Under the pieces are notes generated by a model, which searched no databases, was not told the origin of the DNA, and worked only from the letters and a program-made list of their open reading frames with translations. Below are positions 37,209 through 50,966 of a stretch of DNA of 64,000 nt, one piece after another (position 1 is the first letter of the stretch; the number at the start of each line of letters is the position of its first letter). The stretch is taken from positions 1 through 64,000 of the forward strand of contig JAPPIK010000001.1 in NCBI GenBank assembly GCA_028820655.1. Direction: 5' to 3'. A program made the position numbers and the translations under genes. Origin of the DNA: Candidatus Poribacteria bacterium. GTDB lineage: Bacteria > Poribacteria > WGA-4E > JAJDTR01.

Positions 37209-38084
37209 TTATATGCTTTGATCGGTTCTAGGTCGGACTACGGTTTCGCCATCGTCTTCGATTAGGGGGTGATCATAGACGTACGGCGGTTCCAACACCG
37301 CTTGTTGGGCTTCAGTCAACTCAGACACCCATTCCGGTTGGCTTGTTTGATAGGTCGAGGGAACCCAACTAAAATACTTTGGAACGTAGCGGAAAAAAAG
37401 TACCCGTCTTTCTCCTTTTCCCTTCCAGGGGATAGTGCCGTGGGTCGTCGCCTCATTGAATATAATCATATCCCCTGCCTTGGCGGTCGGGTTGTATACG
37501 ACCTCCCTATCATATTCGTAGTAACGAATGTGTTTGGGAAGAGGGAAATTTGCTTTATGACTGCCGGGGATAACCACCAAACCGCCATCACCGGGGTTGA
37601 CATCGGCCAGTTGGAACTGAAAGACAGTGAGCGCACAGCGTATCCTACCGTTCTGATATTTGTGATAACGCGAACCATCAAGTTCGGCATTTCCGTAACC
37701 GTGGAGATGCAGCCCCGAGCAACCGATCACGGCACTCGCAGCGTCCACGCCGTGATCCAAGCGCCACCCTCTTCCGAATATGGTGTTGCAGTAGGGGATT
37801 AGCTTGGGATGCGCCAAGAGGTCACGAAAGGGTTGGCACCACGGCTTAGGCCAGGTTAGCAGGCCGGAATATAGCCTGAAGATATCCCACTTCCCTTTCA
37901 GCCCTTCGGCGGTCTGATGGGGCGGTCCGAATTCGCCCCGTCTGTCTTCATTCGCATCCAAGGCATCATTGATGGCTTTCACCTCTTCTTTGCTGAGAAA
38001 GCCCGCCACGACGAGAAACCCCTGCAGGTCAAACAGATATTTCTCGCGGTCGGTCATCGTGGCATAATCGGCTACTTCGGGCAT
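37209..38084 (-). CDS. phytanoyl-CoA dioxygenase (PhyH)-family protein, copy B
   Basis: The 291-residue protein has the PhyH plan: EKYLFDLQGFLVVAGFLSKEEV at the start, a central double-stranded beta helix and GDMIIFNEATTHGTIPWKGKGERRVLFFRY. The late His (TTHGT) and the Arg that would bind 2-oxoglutarate are clear. The first iron site, usually H-x-D, reads GLHLHGYGNAELDG (H-x-H). It should be a non-heme iron oxygenase hydroxylating a small molecule, or possibly an altered form. GGAGG precedes the ATG. It follows copy A by 11 bases. Confidence 0.9.
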   Translation of the reverse strand: MPEVADYATMTDREKYLFDLQGFLVVAGFLSKEEVKAINDALDANEDRRGEFGPPHQTAEGLKGKWDIFRLYSGLLTWPKPWCQPFRDLLAHPKLIPYCNTIFGRGWRLDHGVDAASAVIGCSGLHLHGYGNAELDGSRYHKYQNGRIRCALTVFQFQLADVNPGDGGLVVIPGSHKANFPLPKHIRYYEYDREVVYNPTAKAGDMIIFNEATTHGTIPWKGKGERRVLFFRYVPKYFSWVPSTYQTSQPEWVSELTEAQQAVLEPPYVYDHPLIEDDGETVVRPRTDQSI

Positions 38085-38095
38085 CGCAATGCCTC

Positions 38096-38968
38096 CTACA
38101 GCCGCTGATCGAGCCTCGGACGCTCAACAGTCTCGGCGTCATCGTTAATCAGCGGATGACCGTAAACGTACGGCGGTTCCATCACCGCCTGCTGCGCTTC
38201 GGTCAACTCCGATATCCAATCGGGTTGGGTAGTCTCATAAGCTGCGGGAATCCAATTGAAGTATTTGGGGACGTACCGGTAGTATAGCGCCCGTCTCTCC
38301 TGTTTGCCCTTCCACGGCAAAGTGCCGTGCGTCGTTGCCTCGTTAAAGATGACCATATCGCCCGCTTTAACCGGGGGATTGTGGAAGATTTCGTGGTCGG
38401 CTTCATACATTCTAACGTAGTCGGGGAGCGGGTAATTGGCTTTGTGACTACCGGGAACAACGACTAGCCCGCCGTCGCCGGGGTTCACGTCGGTCAGCGG
38501 AAACTGAAATACGGTCAAAGCACAACGCATGCGCCCATTTTGGAATTTGTAATACCGTGACCCGTCGAGCACGGCATCACCCCATCCGTGAAGATGCAGT
38601 CCCTCACAGCCAATAACAGAACTGTTGGCAGAGACGCCATGATCGAGGCGCCATCCTCGCCCGAACATGGTGTTACAGTAGGGAATCAATTTCGGGTGAG
38701 CAATGAGATCCCGAAACGGCTCGCACCACGGCTTTTCCCAATTCAAGATATCGCCATAGGTTCGGCTCGAGAATTCACCTTTCAAACCCTCGGCTGTCTG
38801 GTGCGGAGGTCCGAAATTGCTGCGTTTGTCCTCATTGGCGTCGAGGGCATCATTCGCGGCTTTCACCTCGGCATCCGTCAGGAAGCCCTTAACCACGAGA
38901 AACCCCTGCAAGTCGTACAAGTATTTCTCACGGTCGGACATGGTTACGAAATCTACTTGTTCGTTCAT
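38096..38968 (-). CDS. phytanoyl-CoA dioxygenase (PhyH)-family protein, copy A
   Basis: The 290-residue protein is a close paralog of copy B along its full length (shared SDREKYLYDLQGFLVV, GPPHQTAEGLKG, HPKLIPYCNTMFGRGWRLDHG). It shares the same H-L-H in GLHLHGWGDAVLDG and the late TTHGTLPWKGKQERRALYYRY. They are clearly a tandem duplication within a probable operon with the SDR upstream (96-base gap). GAGG precedes the ATG by nine bases. Co-retention suggests two related substrates or a heteromer, but the sequence alone cannot say which. Confidence 0.9.
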   Translation of the reverse strand: MNEQVDFVTMSDREKYLYDLQGFLVVKGFLTDAEVKAANDALDANEDKRSNFGPPHQTAEGLKGEFSSRTYGDILNWEKPWCEPFRDLIAHPKLIPYCNTMFGRGWRLDHGVSANSSVIGCEGLHLHGWGDAVLDGSRYYKFQNGRMRCALTVFQFPLTDVNPGDGGLVVVPGSHKANYPLPDYVRMYEADHEIFHNPPVKAGDMVIFNEATTHGTLPWKGKQERRALYYRYVPKYFNWIPAAYETTQPDWISELTEAQQAVMEPPYVYGHPLINDDAETVERPRLDQRL

Positions 38969-39996: not shown

Positions 39997-40204
39997 GAAC
40001 CTGTTTGAATAATCAGTAGCAAAGCTATTGTTTCACTTAATAGGGATTTTTTCATGTATTTATTGTTGTCTACTACATACCTGTCGCCCCGCTGGGGCTT
40101 GGGTACACGGGGATTTGGCGTTTCTATACACCTTCCGCCCCGCTGGGGCTTTTAAAGGCTGGTGCGCACTGCGCACCTTAAAAATGTACTCTTCAAACAG
40201 GTTC
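39997..40204. mobile_element. MITE-like element, 208 bp, with 3-bp target duplication
   Basis: Perfect 13-base inverted ends (GAACCTGTTTGAA at 39997 and TTCAAACAGGTTC at 40192) are flanked by TAA on each side (39994-39996 and 40205-40207). The interior has two GCCCCGCTGGGGC hairpins and a palindrome GGTGCGCA-c-TGCGCACC at 40161. There is no coding capacity. The ends match the 377-bp element at 15288. It inserted between the SDR and the cobalamin riboswitch. Confidence 0.85.
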
Positions 40205-40384
40205 TAAGCTAATGTCCTACTATGATCATTCTACCACGATTTCATTGGCAACTCCACATAATACTGCGAGACTTAACCGGGGAGTCGAACGTTAGATCGC
40301 AACAGTGGCTTCGGACGAATTTTCCGGTTGACAATCAAATTTCTATGTGTTAGAATCGGCTTACATTTGAATAGTCTCGGATTC

Positions 40385-40556
40385 AGGGGCTGGCAACTAC
40401 GATGAGTTGCCAGAGAATAGGGAAGCGCGGTGAAAATCCGCCACGGCCCCGCCACTGTAAACGACGGAAAATTGTCTCGAAGACGCCACTGTCCAAAGCC
40501 ATGCGGACGGGAAGGTAGAGACGAGTTGTCGCGAGTCAGGAGACCTGCCTGAATTC
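40385..40556 (+). promoter_or_regulatory. cobalamin (AdoCbl-type) riboswitch aptamer
   Basis: The conserved blocks appear in order: a P2 stem (TGGCAACT...AGTTGCCA), AGGGAAGCGCGGTGAAAATC, GGCCCCGCCACTGTAA, GCCACTG, GGACGGGAAGG and the 3' core GAGTCAGGAGACCTGCC. These match the B12-box architecture closely, so the call is strong. By known mechanism, corrinoid binding lowers expression downstream. It lies on the leader of the propeller gene at 40758. Confidence 0.96.
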
Positions 40557-40681
40557 GGTTTCACACATCGGCTTTCGCGGGAAAGTTGTGAGACAGAGAT
40601 CGGTTTCGTCTTATCTGGACAGTGCGGCTGAAAATCTGAGCACGCCGCGTAATGTGCGCATTGGATGAATAGTGAACTGTA

Positions 40682-40714
40682 CCCCAGTTTCCCTCGCGGA
40701 GGCTGGGGTTTTTT
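40682..40714 (+). terminator. intrinsic terminator in the riboswitch leader
   Basis: CCCCAG pairs with CTGGGG, and inside it CCTC pairs with GAGG around a GCG loop. TTTTTTG follows directly. It is 44 bases before the propeller start, in the position of a riboswitch expression-platform terminator, so control by attenuation is likely. The anti-terminator partner is not worked out. Confidence 0.85.
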
Positions 40715-40757
40715 GTTGCTATAGCACATTGTCCCAGATGGACGAAAGGATTCACCG

Positions 40758-41969
40758 ATGTTAACACGTTGTATTAACACGATTCGCCGCTCCGAAAGGG
40801 GGCGTTTTGATTGGTTTGGAATATTCGCACTGCTTGTTTCGGCACTGGTTCTGATTCCAACCGTCGCAGTGGCGCAGGATCAGGTTAGCAAATTGGCGAT
40901 TGTCGCCAATGGTTTAACCAAACCTGAAGCCGATATCTTCCCATCGCTGTCAATCGTCAACCTCGACGAACCCGACGCTGGCCGAGCCGTCGCAGATGAG
41001 GAAATACCTCTCGGTGACATAATTCCCAGCGATCTGGTTGCGCAAGAAAACCTGTTATATGTGGTCACCCAGATACGCGACCCATTTTTTGACCCTCGCG
41101 GGGGATATGTCGAAGTAATTGACTTACTGACTCATTCTACCATAGAGAAGATCGCGATCGAGTCAGACACAACACCTAAACAGATTGCGATAGTTGAGTC
41201 ATCAAAAGCCTATGTTACTGGCCTATATAGTGATAAGGTTGACGTAGTGGATTTGAACCGTCATCAAGTCATCAAACGCATTTCTGTCGGCCAAATGCCT
41301 GACGGAATAACGGTGCTCAATGGCAAGGCTTACGTGGCAAACTCCGCATATTCGAAGGAGAAGGGCACTTGGAATATCAGTTATGACGACAATAGCAGTG
41401 TCACGGTGATCGACACCGCGACGGACACCGTACTGAAAACCATACCCATGCCGATTAATACCTCTAGCATCGCAAACGATGGAGAATCCAGCGTGATCGC
41501 GGTTTCAGGAGGAGTCGGCGACTGGATCGTTCCCGGGGGAATTCCGGGCACGATTGCAATCATCGACACGGTCACCGATGAAATCGTGGATACTGTTGAT
41601 TTGGAAGACAGAGCGGGAAACCCCGCCGTGGATAGCATGAAGCGTTTGTTCATCAGTTCCGGCGGATTGCTCGTTTACGACTTGGTAAATGGCCAATGGC
41701 TGCATGGAGTAGATAATCCGTTTTCCGATTTGGGTGGTGTCGGAGCGATTGACCAAGACGACAATCTTTATATCACCAAAGCCGATTGGACGGGCGGCGG
41801 AATGGATGAGTTGTATGTTGTTTCCCCCAATGCGGTGTTGCTAAATACGTATCGAGTGGGACACGGAGCGTCGGGAGTTGCGCTCGCCCAAGTTGAGACT
41901 CTCCTGACGGCAGTCAGTCCGCAGGGTAAGTTAGCGATAAGTTGGGGCAAACTCAAAACCAATAACTAG
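40758..41969 (+). CDS. secreted YncE-type beta-propeller under B12 control
   Basis: The 403-residue protein has a signal peptide (FGIFALLVSALVLIPTVAVAQ). Seven or so YncE-like blades follow, with GYVEVIDLLTHSTIEKI, KVDVVDLNRHQVIKRISVGQMPDGITVLNGKAYVANS and VTVIDTATDTVLKTI-type repeats. GAAAGG lies seven bases before the ATG. The riboswitch at 40385 and terminator at 40682 place it under corrinoid control. In Bacteroides, BtuG, a beta-propeller surface lipoprotein, binds B12 tightly and is riboswitch-regulated; this protein is a candidate analogue, though it has no lipobox. No enzyme signature is seen. First gene of the proposed corrinoid locus. Confidence 0.88.
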   Translation: MLTRCINTIRRSERGRFDWFGIFALLVSALVLIPTVAVAQDQVSKLAIVANGLTKPEADIFPSLSIVNLDEPDAGRAVADEEIPLGDIIPSDLVAQENLLYVVTQIRDPFFDPRGGYVEVIDLLTHSTIEKIAIESDTTPKQIAIVESSKAYVTGLYSDKVDVVDLNRHQVIKRISVGQMPDGITVLNGKAYVANSAYSKEKGTWNISYDDNSSVTVIDTATDTVLKTIPMPINTSSIANDGESSVIAVSGGVGDWIVPGGIPGTIAIIDTVTDEIVDTVDLEDRAGNPAVDSMKRLFISSGGLLVYDLVNGQWLHGVDNPFSDLGGVGAIDQDDNLYITKADWTGGGMDELYVVSPNAVLLNTYRVGHGASGVALAQVETLLTAVSPQGKLAISWGKLKTNN

Positions 41970-42027
41970 ACCTCTTACAAACGATGCCTGCGCCTCCTGT
42001 TCCCGCAGGGGAAACCGCCTAAAACAC

Positions 42028-44019
42028 ATGCACATGATGCTTCGCGATTTACGACGGACGTTTCAGCACATAGTGTTGGTTCTTTTCGTCATCGCATTTG
42101 CCAGTTGTACAAGTGGAGGGGTGCAGGCACCGCTTTCTTGGCACGTCAAGTTCGTATCACGCGGGGTTGAGGTTCACTTTGATGCGTCTAATCGACGTTC
42201 GATTCGTCAGGTACGCGTCCTCAGCGCGATCGGTGCGGATGAAATTGTCGTTGCCCAACTTCATTTGGACAGTCAGCCTCGCACTATAGAGACTCTCTAC
42301 TTTCGGTGGGAGAACGGAATAGAGTACCGGTTCGAGGTTCAGGGGGAGTCGGGAGATACCCTTTCCAAGACGCTACGAGCACCGCAGTCAGACCAACACG
42401 GTTCACTGGAGATTGCAATCCCTTACGGAACTATCGTGAGGGGGGGCCTTGAAGAATCAGATTCCCCGGCTTCGCTATCGGGTGAGTCATTGGTGCTCGA
42501 GGATAGCGACATGACAATGACTTTGCTCGTGCGAAACGATTTGAGAGCACCTGTTGATTTCGAGGTGAAAGTCGAGATTCCTTTCCCGCTTCGAGTGTCC
42601 GAGTTTCCCGCAGATTTGGATATCAAAAAGAAGGTTGTGAAATTTAGTTCATCACCTAGCGGAAGCGGGGGCGAGAATTCACACCTAACCGCATCGGGAC
42701 GATTCGCCGTGGAGTCGGAGGTCTGGTACAGGCAAGTAGGGTTGTATGTCCCGACGGAGCCGCTTTCAGATTCGACTCGAATTTCAGGACGGGTGTTTTT
42801 CAAATCGGTCGACGGGGTGTCTTGGGAGCGGCAAGTTTCCGTTCCTTTGCGGTCGGCGACGATTAACGAAATAGCTTCGCTAATCTCAATCGAGGACGTG
42901 TTCATGCCGACGGACGAAGTGGGCATTTTTGATCCGCGTCAACGGCCGGATGTAATCTCCAATCCCCAGCCCGTGCTAGGGCGTCTAGGCAAGTGGTTGG
43001 GAGTGAGAGCGGAGCATACAGACTATTTTGAGCCGATTTCGTACCAATCAGTGCTTCTTCGAAACGCTGGCGAACAAACTATCCATTTGCTTGTTTCGGG
43101 AGTGAACCTTGACGCAAGGAACGGGAACCCTGTCCCTTCCCTCGCCCCACCGGCTGAATTCAATGCAGGCACAAACCGGACGTTTGCTTTTGCAAGTTTG
43201 GAGGCACAGACCACCACTAACGTACCGTTACCAATCTACTTCAATCCGTCAATGGCCGAAGATACTGCATCGCGCGGATTCAAGGGGAGAGGCAGATATG
43301 CACGGGAGATAGAGGTAAAGGTTTGGGGAAGCGACAAAACCATAATCCATGCAACGAGACCCTTGTACATTGAGACGCCTAATCAGCAAGCCCTGGTTGT
43401 CACTGTGTGCGCATTTGGCGGCGCAATCGTAGGGTTTATTCTCTTTTTCGGTTATCATCGGGCAATCTTCAAGCGCTTCTCAACGAAGCAACTCATCGTG
43501 ATCGCTCTCTTTGGTGCGACCATTTTTGTTGCCGTTAGCATCCCGTCCACACTCATTGCCAACCTGATTTCCGCGTTGCTTGGACCTGCCTCGTTTCTCG
43601 TAACGGGTCTGATAAACGAGATGTTGTATTACGCCTTGCTGACGGCGTTGTTGATGCTGGTTCCCAAGACAGGGGTTATCACATTGGTATCTCTCGTTCG
43701 GTTGTTGCTTGGCGGCGTAGTATTGGGACTATTCAATCCAACAACGGTGGTCTTCACGGGCGTGAGCGCCCTGCTCTTGGAATTAGGTTTTAGAATCTCC
43801 GGAAACGGCCATCGCTTGTTGCCGCTCGCGTTGGCGTTCGGCGTGTGCGATTCCGCCGCTGTTTTCGTCGACTTTCAGATTAGTATGACGCTGTACCGCC
43901 TCTTTTATGCCGACTGGTATATTATTTCTCGATGCGTAATCGACGGGTTTATCTACACGTTTGTCGGTGTGTTTTTGGGCAGGCGTTTGGGATGGGGGTT
44001 GTGGCGCGTAGCAGAATGA
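42028..44019 (+). CDS. lipoprotein with extracytoplasmic domain and ECF S-component-like membrane domain
   Basis: The 663-residue protein begins with a lipoprotein signal (HIVLVLFVIAFASC) and a large soluble part of about 420 residues rich in beta strand. A first helix then acts as an anchor (QALVVTVCAFGGAIVGFILFF), followed by six helices starting TKQLIVIALFGATIFVAVS and ending GFIYTFVGVFLGRRLGW. Six helices is the count of ECF-transporter S-components, and the pattern of small and polar residues within helices (GPASFLVTGLINEMLYYALL) fits that fold. This is inference from composition, not a profile hit. It follows the riboswitch-controlled propeller by 58 bases, so a cobalamin or precursor substrate is plausible. 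No A or T subunit is in the window. Confidence 0.78.
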   Translation: MHMMLRDLRRTFQHIVLVLFVIAFASCTSGGVQAPLSWHVKFVSRGVEVHFDASNRRSIRQVRVLSAIGADEIVVAQLHLDSQPRTIETLYFRWENGIEYRFEVQGESGDTLSKTLRAPQSDQHGSLEIAIPYGTIVRGGLEESDSPASLSGESLVLEDSDMTMTLLVRNDLRAPVDFEVKVEIPFPLRVSEFPADLDIKKKVVKFSSSPSGSGGENSHLTASGRFAVESEVWYRQVGLYVPTEPLSDSTRISGRVFFKSVDGVSWERQVSVPLRSATINEIASLISIEDVFMPTDEVGIFDPRQRPDVISNPQPVLGRLGKWLGVRAEHTDYFEPISYQSVLLRNAGEQTIHLLVSGVNLDARNGNPVPSLAPPAEFNAGTNRTFAFASLEAQTTTNVPLPIYFNPSMAEDTASRGFKGRGRYAREIEVKVWGSDKTIIHATRPLYIETPNQQALVVTVCAFGGAIVGFILFFGYHRAIFKRFSTKQLIVIALFGATIFVAVSIPSTLIANLISALLGPASFLVTGLINEMLYYALLTALLMLVPKTGVITLVSLVRLLLGGVVLGLFNPTTVVFTGVSALLLELGFRISGNGHRLLPLALAFGVCDSAAVFVDFQISMTLYRLFYADWYIISRCVIDGFIYTFVGVFLGRRLGWGLWRVAE

Positions 44020-44239
44020 TGTGCGCTCGAGGATAGACTTTCACCCTTACTCGCGTTCCGCGACACACGCAATTCCAGCTAGGGTTTGCAAACGAAGAAA
44101 TTTATGTTCGTATATTGTCAATAGAAAGAGGGAAACGATACAGTTTGCAATTGTAGGTACAGGAGTTCGGTTTCCCGATCTGTTGCGAATTTGGTCCCGA
44201 TTCGGAAAGCCCTTTAATACCGCCGGCGTTCTACCGACT

Positions 44240-44256
44240 GGTGGGCAATGCCCACC
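44240..44256. repeat. palindrome GGTGGGCA-a-TGCCCACC
   Basis: Perfect 8-base arms, followed by ctacaaaagc. The same shape with different bases lies inside the MITE at 40161 (GGTGCGCA-c-TGCGCACC). It sits in the 270-base gap before the second propeller gene and may mark a small insertion or work as an mRNA hairpin. Confidence 0.6.
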
Positions 44257-44290
44257 CTACAAAAGCTACTAAGACAAGTGGAGGAATTTA

Positions 44291-45976
44291 ATGAAGGATG
44301 AGAATCTTCGATTGTGCATTTCTATCGCGCTAATTGTCTGCATTGCAGGTCTGGTCCGCAGCGCTTACGGAGCGGAAATTCAACACGATGACATTACATT
44401 CACTAGGCAGGGTGTTGTCATAGAGGCTAGGAATGAACCGACACTGCGCATTCAGGCGCAGATCCAATCTGACGCGGGACTGGTGCCGGTTGAAGTACTG
44501 CCGATTGACGGAGACCGCCTCTTTCTTCAATTTTCATGGCAACCTGCTACAGCCTATGAGATTCGTCTCGATTCACTGAATCTTGAAGGACGCCATGTCT
44601 CTCCGCTGAAGCCAAGCGTGTACCGGGTGCGTATGATCGAGCTGGATTCTCTGCTTTCACTCTTAGCAAATCTCAAGCGCCCCGCCGTGCCAACCACCGT
44701 CGCCTTTTCCCCGGACGGAAGCAAGCTTGCTATTGCAACGGATGCGGGCCATCTTGCGATTCTAGACCCGCTCACGGGAAAAGATATTTGGAGTACACGA
44801 ATCTCGGAGGGTTACGCCAAACATACGACATTTGGTCCTGACGGTACTCTATTCTATATTGGGGAACAATCCGCCGAGGGCTTGATTTACGCATACAAGT
44901 TGTCGAAAAAGGAACCTGAACTGGCCTGGACGTACCGGACAGCGGACGACATCGATACATCCCGACCAGTAAACCCGGACGACGTTTACGGGTGGGTACA
45001 ATATCCCGGACCCTATCGTATGGCTATGACGGCTGATGGCGATCTCTTGGCGTCGGCGAATCATTCGTGGACCGAGGATGGTAAAAATCTAAAAAAGGCA
45101 CAGTTTTACTGCTTTGACGGCGCCACGGGAGAGGTAAAATGGAAGTGGCCGAGTGATCGAGCCCTTCCAATGATTATCAAATGGTTTGACTACAGTAAAG
45201 ACGGCAAGACTGTCGCTCTCGTGTGCGACGGAGGCGCCACAGACGGTTCGTCACGTTACAGTTCGGGGACATTGTATGTGCTTGAGGGCGAATCCGGGGC
45301 GGACCGATGGAATCACACGTTTGACTCGCTAAAGCCTTACTACGGGGCAGTGACGTTCTGGCGAGGCGTGGCTGTTTCACCCGATGGATCGTGGATAAAT
45401 GTCTCTACGGATGATGGAAGAGTTTTCATCTTTGATTCGGCCGGCACCGACAGACATTGGAAAACCGACCTCACAACACCTCTGAAGGTCAGCGATGTTC
45501 CCGTCACCGCTACTGCGGGTACTATTGGCGCCACAAACGAAATTGCCGTGTTTGTAACCGGCGACACCTATATTCCCTATCATCTTAAGAAAGGTGCGCA
45601 ACAGCCACCGTCAGCGCATCCAAACGGTATGACGTTTTTCGCTTATTCGTGGACGGGAGAAAAGAGATGGCAGTGGAAATTGGAAAACATGCCGCAGGCC
45701 TTGCGAATAAACGCCAGGGGGAAATATGCCGTTGTTAGTCAATCAAAATATAATCGAAGCAACGTTCAACAATTGCACGGCGTCTCCGTCTATAATCTGA
45801 AGGAAGAAGGCGGCGGTCTTGAGAAATACCTGTACACGTATCGTACAGAGGGAATGCTTCCGTACGATACGATAGACATCAGCGCTGACGGAAGGCTAAT
45901 CGCCGTGGTTGAAACGCCGATTGTCATGCCGGATGAAACGGTGCGCGGAAAGAACCGAGTGCATATATTGAAGTAG
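44291..45976 (+). CDS. secreted PQQ/WD40-type beta-propeller protein
   Basis: The 561-residue protein has a signal peptide (CISIALIVCIAGLVRSAYG). An N-terminal beta domain of about 90 residues (FTRQGVVIEARN ... FSWQPATAYEIRL) is followed by a PQQ-like propeller: VAFSPDGSKLAIATDAGHLAILDPLTGKDIWSTR, FYCFDGATGEVKWKW, LYVLEGESGADRWNHTF, VFIFDSAGTDRHWKTD. Its N-terminal domain resembles the first part of the S-component-like lipoprotein upstream (VKFVSRGVEVHFD ... FRWENGIEYRFEV), which links the two. GGAGG precedes the ATG. It is probably in the same transcript, although a 270-base gap with a palindrome separates them. Confidence 0.85.
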   Translation: MKDENLRLCISIALIVCIAGLVRSAYGAEIQHDDITFTRQGVVIEARNEPTLRIQAQIQSDAGLVPVEVLPIDGDRLFLQFSWQPATAYEIRLDSLNLEGRHVSPLKPSVYRVRMIELDSLLSLLANLKRPAVPTTVAFSPDGSKLAIATDAGHLAILDPLTGKDIWSTRISEGYAKHTTFGPDGTLFYIGEQSAEGLIYAYKLSKKEPELAWTYRTADDIDTSRPVNPDDVYGWVQYPGPYRMAMTADGDLLASANHSWTEDGKNLKKAQFYCFDGATGEVKWKWPSDRALPMIIKWFDYSKDGKTVALVCDGGATDGSSRYSSGTLYVLEGESGADRWNHTFDSLKPYYGAVTFWRGVAVSPDGSWINVSTDDGRVFIFDSAGTDRHWKTDLTTPLKVSDVPVTATAGTIGATNEIAVFVTGDTYIPYHLKKGAQQPPSAHPNGMTFFAYSWTGEKRWQWKLENMPQALRINARGKYAVVSQSKYNRSNVQQLHGVSVYNLKEEGGGLEKYLYTYRTEGMLPYDTIDISADGRLIAVVETPIVMPDETVRGKNRVHILK

Positions 45977-49497: not shown

Positions 49498-50184
49498 TTA
49501 TTCGTCGGAAAAATCTGCGGCACAGCGAAACCCGAAGTTGCGATACATCTGGTCAGGACGACACTCTTTACGTGTGGCTACGCGCAGGAAACATCTCCAA
49601 TTGTTCCAAGTGCCTCCGCGCACACAGCGAACTTCTCCCGTTTCAGGCCCCTTGGGATTCTTGACCGGCGAGCGGCTGTAATAGTCTTCCTCGTACCAAT
49701 CCGCGCACCATTCCCACACATTGCCCGCAACATCGTAAAGGCCGTATCCGTTGGGATCATAACTTCCTACCGGCATCGTACTGCCAAGTCCCAGATAATT
49801 GGCATTTTCGCGCGACAGTTCATCGCCCCACGGATAGCGCTTGCCGGCAAGACCGCCTCTGGCGGCGTATTCCCACTCCGCTTCAGTTGGCAACCTCTTG
49901 CCCGCCCAACTTGCGTAGGCGCTGGCATCAAACCAACTGGCGAAAATCATCGGATGGTCATCGCCGAGTGAATACTTGAGGACATTGTTCCAGCGATTGT
50001 CGTCAAATTCGTAACCACTCGTTTCGACGAACTCTCGAAATTTTCCCACCGTGACCTGATGTATGTCCATGTAAAAGGCATCGAGTTCTACGCTGTGAAC
50101 CGTCAAGGCGTCAAAAATATCGTCAAGGTGATCGCCCATCTCGAATCTGCCAGCGGGTATCAGCGCCATGTTATCTTGTGACAT
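49498..50184 (-). CDS. SUMF1 (formylglycine-generating enzyme-like) domain protein
   Basis: The 228-residue single-domain protein opens with MALIPAGRFEMGDHLDDI and has RLPTEAEWEYAARGGLAGKRYPWGDE, YDVAGNVWEWCADWYE and VRGGTWNNWRCFLRVATRKE, ending NFGFRCA. In true FGE two Cys in the GGS...C...C loop bind copper and convert a sulfatase Cys. Here there is only one Cys in that loop (WRC). No sulfatase is in the window. It may instead be a ligand-binding or other SUMF1-domain protein. GGAGG lies four bases before the ATG. A paralog lies next upstream. Confidence 0.88.
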   Translation of the reverse strand: MSQDNMALIPAGRFEMGDHLDDIFDALTVHSVELDAFYMDIHQVTVGKFREFVETSGYEFDDNRWNNVLKYSLGDDHPMIFASWFDASAYASWAGKRLPTEAEWEYAARGGLAGKRYPWGDELSRENANYLGLGSTMPVGSYDPNGYGLYDVAGNVWEWCADWYEEDYYSRSPVKNPKGPETGEVRCVRGGTWNNWRCFLRVATRKECRPDQMYRNFGFRCAADFSDE

Positions 50185-50215
50185 AAATCCTCCTACAGAA
50201 AGCGAAATGTTACTG

Positions 50216-50938
50216 CTATTCTCCAGAGACGTTCCGAACGCAGCGGAACCCGACGCAGTAACTATTGGCAGTTGGGGAATCGTGGTTGCGAGCTGCTACA
50301 CGGAGCGTTTGGGCGTCGTGGCGCCAAGATCCACCTCGCGCCACTCTATAGTAACCCTCCTCCGGACCCTTCGGATTATTCAGCGGCGAATTGCCATAAT
50401 AGTGTTTATCGTACCAATCCGCGCACCATTCCCAGACGTTTCCCGCCATGTCGTAGAGTCCGAATCCGTTTGGGCTAAAACTTTCCACCTGAGAGCAACC
50501 TTCCATTCCCGCATGGTTAGCGTTTTCTACCCTGACTTCATTTCCCCAAGGATAGCGTTCGCCGATAAGTCCACCTCGTGCAGCGTACTCCCATTCGGCT
50601 TCCGTAGGCAATCGCTTGCCCGCCCACGCAGCAAAGGCGGCGGCGTCGCTCCAATTCACATAAACCATCGGGTGATCATCAGAGGGCGAATATCTGGCGA
50701 CATTGTCCCAATTGTGGCAGCTGTAATTGTAACCATCTTCGTCAACGATTTTTCGGGTGTAATTGTATCCGCTATCTTCCACAAATTGCTTAAACTGCCC
50801 TACCGTAACCGGATGCGCGTCAATGTAAAAGCTGTCCAATTCGACAGTGTGAACCGGATGTGCATCCTCAATATTGTCGAGATGGTCCCCCATATCAAAA
50901 CTGCCGGCCGGTATGAGTACCATGGAATGTTGTAGCAT
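50216..50938 (-). CDS. SUMF1-domain protein, paralog
   Basis: The 240-residue protein is similar along its length to the gene at 49498 (PAGSFDMGDHLDNI, PTEAEWEYAARGGLIGERYPWGNE, AGNVWEWCADWYDKH). The loop reads RGGSWRHDAQTLRVAARNHD, with no Cys, so formylglycine synthesis is not expected. The start MLQHSMVLIP has GGAGG four bases upstream; the seven codons before it are unlikely to be used. Tandem duplication with its neighbour (31-base gap). Function unknown. Confidence 0.88.
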   Translation of the reverse strand: MLQHSMVLIPAGSFDMGDHLDNIEDAHPVHTVELDSFYIDAHPVTVGQFKQFVEDSGYNYTRKIVDEDGYNYSCHNWDNVARYSPSDDHPMVYVNWSDAAAFAAWAGKRLPTEAEWEYAARGGLIGERYPWGNEVRVENANHAGMEGCSQVESFSPNGFGLYDMAGNVWEWCADWYDKHYYGNSPLNNPKGPEEGYYRVARGGSWRHDAQTLRVAARNHDSPTANSYCVGFRCVRNVSGE

Positions 50939-50966
50939 GGTTCCTCCGATGAAAGTCATGCAGGTT

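Follow-up and report, generated by a model that had tools for sequence, protein, structure and literature searches.

Several bacterial systems for the capture and transport of cobalamin (vitamin B12) are already known. ECF-CbrT is the cobalamin energy-coupling factor (ECF) transporter of Lactobacillus delbrueckii (PMC5997447), BtuM is a solitary B12 protein that resembles an ECF substrate-binding component (S-component) and has been described as a predicted stand-alone transporter (PMC6072759), and the BtuG proteins are surface propellers of Bacteroides (PMC6143338, PMC10404256). Here, we describe a locus that can be compared with each of these. It lies in a stretch of DNA, hereafter the window, that covers bases 1-64000 of contig 20 in a metagenome-assembled genome of Candidatus Poribacteria (G000; 5.88 Mb, 61 contigs). 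In this locus, a cobalamin riboswitch precedes three genes, which encode a secreted propeller (P0001), a lipoprotein with a membrane domain (P0002), and another secreted propeller (P0003; Table 1). We consider it probable that they constitute a cobalamin-repressed operon for a corrinoid ECF importer, in which P0002 represents a new S-component family with a lipidated, immunoglobulin (Ig)-like ectodomain that works with BtuG-like propellers.

The riboswitch was the only match to RF00174 in the whole genome, and its score lies well above the gathering score of 31.5 bits. A preliminary description, made from the letters of the window, had called this riboswitch complete, and the match indeed covers the full model; its true start lies 17 bases upstream of position 40385, where the locus had been taken to begin. 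A promoter-like site ends 11 bases before the riboswitch, and a terminator-like hairpin follows it, whose position would be consistent with cobalamin control of the downstream genes. The hairpin was also detected in other genomes of families f1 and f4, and 0 of 50 shuffled sequences gave an equally good one. As it was confined to these two families (9 of 30 scanned loci), the idea that every riboswitch of this kind is followed by a terminator was rejected.

Across 59 genomes of the same order, the riboswitch was found in 57 and P0002 in 56. The riboswitch was located upstream of P0002 on the same strand in 53 of these 56, with a median spacing of 1680 bases; among the remaining three, two carried the riboswitch and P0002 on separate contigs (G007 and G021), and one gave no riboswitch match (G045). 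The gene order riboswitch-P0001-P0002-P0003 was kept in four families of the order, f1, f2, f3, and f4. This association is far beyond chance, and the case that would have spoken against the preliminary description, a riboswitch serving only a distant gene, was not seen in these relatives. In genome G004, the unit is split: one riboswitch lies 148 bases before P0002-P0003, while a second precedes a P0001 homologue on another contig. The presence of a riboswitch on each half points to selection for co-regulation, and argues against these genes being mere neighbors of another target. In the phylum as a whole, 70 of the 73 genomes from this order carried P0002, as did none of the 12 from outside it.

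A cobalamin riboswitch was also observed in a different setting in G021 (contig C394, L070 1263-4846), where the genes downstream of it encode an IscB-like RRXRR/HNH protein and a Cas4-Cas1 fusion. This arrangement may represent an insertion, a misbinned contig, or a separate target.

Table 1. Features of the riboswitch-controlled locus, in window positions.
Feature	Position	Strand	Basis or details
Promoter-like site TTGACA-17-TAGAAT, TG before -10	40328..40356	+	11/12 consensus positions, consensus match only
Cobalamin riboswitch aptamer	40368..40566	+	RF00174, 112.6 bits, E 2e-27, model positions 1-189 (full length)
Intrinsic terminator-like hairpin ACCCCAGTTTCCCTCGCGGAGGCTGGGGT then TTTTTG	40681..40709	+	12-pair stem, between riboswitch and P0001
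P0001, secreted YncE/BtuG-like beta-propeller, 403 amino acids	40758..41969	+	Open reading frame (ORF); family profile vs BtuG structures
P0002, lipoprotein, Ig-like ectodomain fused to ECF S-component-like membrane domain, 663 amino acids	42028..44019	+	
P0002 lipidation Cys27 and extracytoplasmic beta-sandwich region, residues ~27-451 (~430 residues)	42106..43380	+	
P0002 membrane domain, residues 453-663, seven predicted helices	43384..44016	+	
P0003, secreted PQQ/WD-type beta-propeller, 561 amino acids	44291..45976	+	PQQ_2 over cut-off

When P0002 alone was scanned against Pfam and NCBIfam with hmmscan, no match was found. The lipobox cysteine, Cys27, is invariant in 18 homologues, and the AlphaFold model of the membrane domain (predicted local distance difference test score, pLDDT, 84.6) contains one leading membrane helix and six further ones. 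Both findings bear out the earlier description of a lipoprotein with six-plus-one helices; its ectodomain, put there at about 420 residues, has about 430. The same description had proposed that the C-terminus resembles an S-component, and a Foldseek search with the membrane domain agreed: an ECF S-component, 5EDL, ranked first and was the sole match with a probability of 1.00 (template modeling (TM) scores 0.52/0.56), while RibU was matched as well (TM 0.51/0.61). An unrelated fold, which would have contradicted the proposal, was thus not what the search returned. The membrane domain is also the better conserved part, with a mean column identity of 65% vs 52% for the whole protein. The ectodomain appears in the model as a string of beta-sandwiches, for which full-length Foldseek gave generic Ig-like matches at a TM of ~0.15; as these values are low, we limit our claim to the Ig-like fold class.

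The structure 5EDL we take to be YkoE, the thiamine S-component of YkoEDC. YkoE is therefore the best fold match for P0002, and, as is proposed for P0002, it is partnered by a fused double ATPase and EcfT; P0002, however, falls under the cut-off of the YkoE family PF09819, is under cobalamin rather than thiamine control, and is fused to an ectodomain. The parallel with CbrT drawn in the preliminary description stands in part. P0002 shares with CbrT the fold class, an ECF module that is encoded elsewhere, a genomic logic of auxotrophy without BtuCDF, and the substrate, which is cobalamin or cobinamide for CbrT and is proposed to be so for P0002. The nearest fold is that of YkoE, however, and P0002 shows no detectable sequence similarity to CbrT, from which it further differs in its lipidated ectodomain of ~430 residues, its two propellers, and its single fused double ATPase. 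BtuM, in turn, is likewise an S-type membrane protein for B12, but it gave no sequence match to P0002, and in Poribacteria an ECF module is present. Within the Poribacterial P0002 proteins, Cys607-Asp608 (window 43846-43851) is invariant, while the cysteine is not kept in methanogens; by analogy with BtuM, Cys607 might serve as a cobalt ligand.

All P0002-related loci in named records belonged to Candidatus Poribacteria or to methanogens, such as Methanosarcina and Methanococcoides. The homologues in these two genera are ~32% identical to P0002, over a region that includes part of the ectodomain. They are encoded in an operon that contains genes for a small protein, two P0003-like propellers, CobN, the P0002-like protein, a double ATPase, EcfT, an ATP-binding cassette (ABC) ATPase, and an ABC-2 permease. 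With NCBIfam models, the double ATPase scored over the cut-off as an ECF ATPase, and the large gene was assigned to CobN with 2223 bits. The operon thus resembles the Poribacterial system in its homologous S-domain and partial ectodomain, its P0003-like propellers, here duplicated, and its ATPase and EcfT. It differs in lacking a P0001 homologue, in carrying CobN and the extra ABC ATPase and ABC-2 permease, and in encoding the ATPase and EcfT in the same operon. The position of CobN within the operon (L145 6084-9908) was the same in other methanogen loci.

ECF ATPase and EcfT subunits, which according to the preliminary description should be sought elsewhere in the genome, were found there. 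Exactly one EcfT was detected in 28 of 30 Poribacterial genomes, and in this genome it is encoded on another contig (G000:C60), beside a double ATPase that is 41% identical to that of the methanogens. The 13 Poribacterial EcfT loci that were read all lay apart from the riboswitch locus. In a tree of 36 EcfT sequences, the Poribacterial EcfT joined the EcfT of the methanogen operon in a group that leaves out 18 paralogues of four methanogen genomes, with a support of 98/95. Taken together, the tree, the operon context, and the homology make the S-component, the double ATPase, EcfT, and P0003 look like one inherited machine, of which the ECF module moved away from the S-component in Poribacteria.

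On contig C60, two tandem genes for B12-binding radical S-adenosylmethionine (SAM) proteins with DUF4070 directly precede the double ATPase and EcfT genes (L166 1914-6047). This pairing of a B12-binding radical-SAM gene with the ECF module recurs in several relatives.

P0001 was expected to be a secreted YncE-type propeller, and its single N-terminal hydrophobic stretch and propeller domain matches agree with this. Its family profile gave the archaeal surface-layer propeller 1L0Q as top match, via repeats. Against 8PTD, 8PTF, and 8BLW_B, the profile aligned in a single in-register stretch of ~250 residues (3e-16 to 5e-16), with further matches near 1e-9 to 8BMX, 8OKV, and 3DSM. These structures include BtuB1G1 (8BLW), BtuG2 with cyanocobalamin (8BMX), BtuG3 (8OKV), and apo BtuG2 (3DSM; PMC10404256). 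P0001 thus resembles BtuG1-3 in sequence, and its operon is likewise linked to B12. The parallel with BtuG was nevertheless incomplete: the N-terminal signal peptide (LIPTVAVAQDQ) has no lipobox cysteine, no TonB receptor gene, btuB included, lies at the riboswitch locus, and P0001 is found outside Bacteroidetes, although BtuG had been described as exclusive to that group. Because the lipobox is lacking, we call P0001 BtuG-like and do not file it as BtuG. A further difference is a C-terminal dockerin, present in 12 of 17 P0001 homologues and missing in the genus of the window. Proteins with cohesin domains adjoin the P0001 homologues in G014, G018, G007, and G004, where the neighbor in G018 was assigned by clustering with the scanned protein of G014. 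The cohesin genes directly beside dockerin-bearing homologues (L063 11138-12667, L178 1-1398, and L080 6315-7364) suggest that the vitamin-binding propeller is displayed by cohesin-dockerin pairing.

The third gene had been described as encoding another secreted propeller, which its one N-terminal hydrophobic stretch and PQQ_2 match confirm. It is the adjacent third gene in the four families. Its role is the least certain part of the system.

The metabolic context was assessed in 16 genomes. CbiC and CobN were absent in all 16, which makes de novo corrin synthesis unlikely. Proteins that bind B12 are present, however: three are radical-SAM proteins, and another is a corrinoid protein of the methyltransferase type, found next to a RACo-type activator. 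A full-score FecCD permease, of the BtuC family, was missing in 9 of the 16 genomes, including the single-contig G012. The sole full-score FecCD of the window's own genome lies in a locus (L192 7036-14617, G000:C42) with HmuY, a TonB receptor, a binding protein, an ATPase, and an ABM monooxygenase; judged by its gene content, this looks like a heme-type uptake locus, resembling the Hmu systems of Bacteroidetes. As this locus looks heme-type, the only riboswitch of the genome lies elsewhere, and 9 of the 16 genomes have no such permease at full score, BtuCDF was rejected as the B12 route. As for the absence of btuB, which had been suggested as a check, no TonB receptor in the 16 genomes reached the cut-off of the B12-receptor model, although this genome encodes 17 TonB receptors.

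Several lines point to a corrinoid as the ligand: the cobalamin riboswitch, the missing synthesis markers, the fact that many relatives do without the alternative permease, and the gene neighborhoods, with CobN in the archaea and B12 radical-SAM genes in this genome. The earlier reading of the three genes as capture outside the membrane followed by transport is largely supported by the S-component fold, the lone ECF module, and the conserved unit, from which we infer the function. At low intracellular levels of cobalamin, the riboswitch would allow transcription to continue beyond the terminator. P0001 would then capture corrinoids outside the cytoplasmic membrane, either borne by a dockerin, as in most relatives, with cohesins encoded nearby, or free, as in this genus. 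P0003 may assist in presenting the ligand or passing it on. With its lipidated N-terminus as an anchor, P0002 would receive the ligand through its Ig-like ectodomain or use this domain to dock the propellers, while the S-component domain at its C-terminus would bind the corrinoid within the membrane. Finally, the only ECF module of the genome, the fused double ATPase with EcfT, would energize P0002.

Several observations weigh against this reading. The Foldseek match to the S-component has an E value of 0.011 and a TM of about 0.5, and a profile of the membrane domain retrieved none of all PDB sequences at E up to 10, those of CbrT and BtuM included. PF09819 was matched below threshold, with E values of 0.017-0.02 in single members and 15.5 vs 25.2 bits in L145. 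The S-component gene and the ATPase and EcfT genes lie on different contigs in this genome, and several joins in the EcfT tree were flagged as possible long-branch effects. The 271 bases between P0002 and P0003 mean that P0003 could have its own promoter. At the outer membrane, no TonB receptor reached the B12-receptor cut-off. What the computations show is how the regulatory elements are laid out, that the genes are conserved together, that the membrane domain folds like an S-component, that P0001 resembles BtuG in sequence, that the S-component, double ATPase, EcfT, and P0003 have a common ancestry with those of methanogens, and that two markers of de novo synthesis are absent. We infer from this evidence that corrinoids are the ligand, in which order they are handed over, and that P0002 forms a complex with the double ATPase and EcfT.

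Three other explanations were weighed. The first, which we regard as improbable, is that P0002 is part of a transporter for tetrapyrroles whose specificity is wider than, or differs from, that for corrinoids, with heme or porphyrin fragments as possible substrates, and that the riboswitch does no more than couple it to B12 status. An ECF heme transporter has been reported in Staphylococcus lugdunensis (PMC7299338), and a part in metalloporphyrin salvage has been discussed for CobN-like proteins from Bacteroides and Methanosarcina (PMC10846266); the methanogen operon contains CobN. This genome has a separate heme-type locus with HmuY, however, and almost every genome in the order has a cobalamin aptamer in control.

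It is less probable still that P0002 imports cobalt ions, like some Cbi-type ECF systems under B12 riboswitch control. In other bacteria, cobalt transporters are indeed among the targets of cobalamin riboswitches (PMC2667541), and weak matches to a Pfam family named ABC_cobalt were obtained. Without CbiC and CobN, however, the 16 genomes would hardly need cobalt for making corrins. Moreover, the membrane domain has no invariant histidine, the Poribacterial EcfT scored below the cut-off of the cobalt CbiQ equivalog model (71.3 vs 111.8 bits), and the operon contains a BtuG-like propeller. Equally remote is an unrelated seven-helix anchor, by which P0002 would be a receptor handing corrinoids to another permease: the sub-threshold sequence matches and the large Ig-like ectodomain, unusual for an S-component, would suit it, but the sole Foldseek match with a probability of 1.00 is an S-component, RibU was matched too, the methanogen homologues immediately adjoin an ECF double ATPase and EcfT, and the EcfT tree groups the two systems.

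Beyond the corrinoid importer itself, we tentatively propose a wider picture, which we hold to be possible rather than likely. P0002 may found an S-component family that is a hybrid between ECF and binding-protein-dependent importers, with an ectodomain fed by BtuG-like propellers that are displayed through cohesin and dockerin in most Poribacteria; in methanogens, the same inherited machine may act with CobN in the import or salvage of corrinoids or of other tetrapyrroles that carry a metal. The combination of the three genes had been noted as one not known to be described, and in the open-licence PubMed Central (PMC) literature we likewise found no S-component with a lipidated ectodomain, no dockerin-bearing BtuG-like propellers outside Bacteroidetes, and no machine that Poribacteria have in common with methanogens. 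Many B12-dependent microbes have no assigned B12 permease, and the Poribacteria, a phylum of sponge symbionts, hereby gain a defined, riboswitch-controlled candidate importer. The locus would add a new architecture to the S-components, extend BtuG-like capture beyond Bacteroidetes, and suggests that vitamin binders can be displayed through dockerins. It also gives a likely role to an unnamed operon of Methanosarcina, which is accessible in genetically tractable archaea.

Two further features of the window were noted. The operon is flanked by short palindromic, possibly repetitive motifs, read from the sequence as CGCCCCGCTGGGGCTT, which occurs twice, and GGTGGGCAATGCCCACC (window 40080-40155 and 44230-44262). 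On the - strand, the ORF list contains two pairs of similar adjacent genes (window 37209-38968 and 49498-50959), which by eye resemble paralogues of the phytanoyl-CoA dioxygenase type and of the formylglycine-generating-enzyme type.

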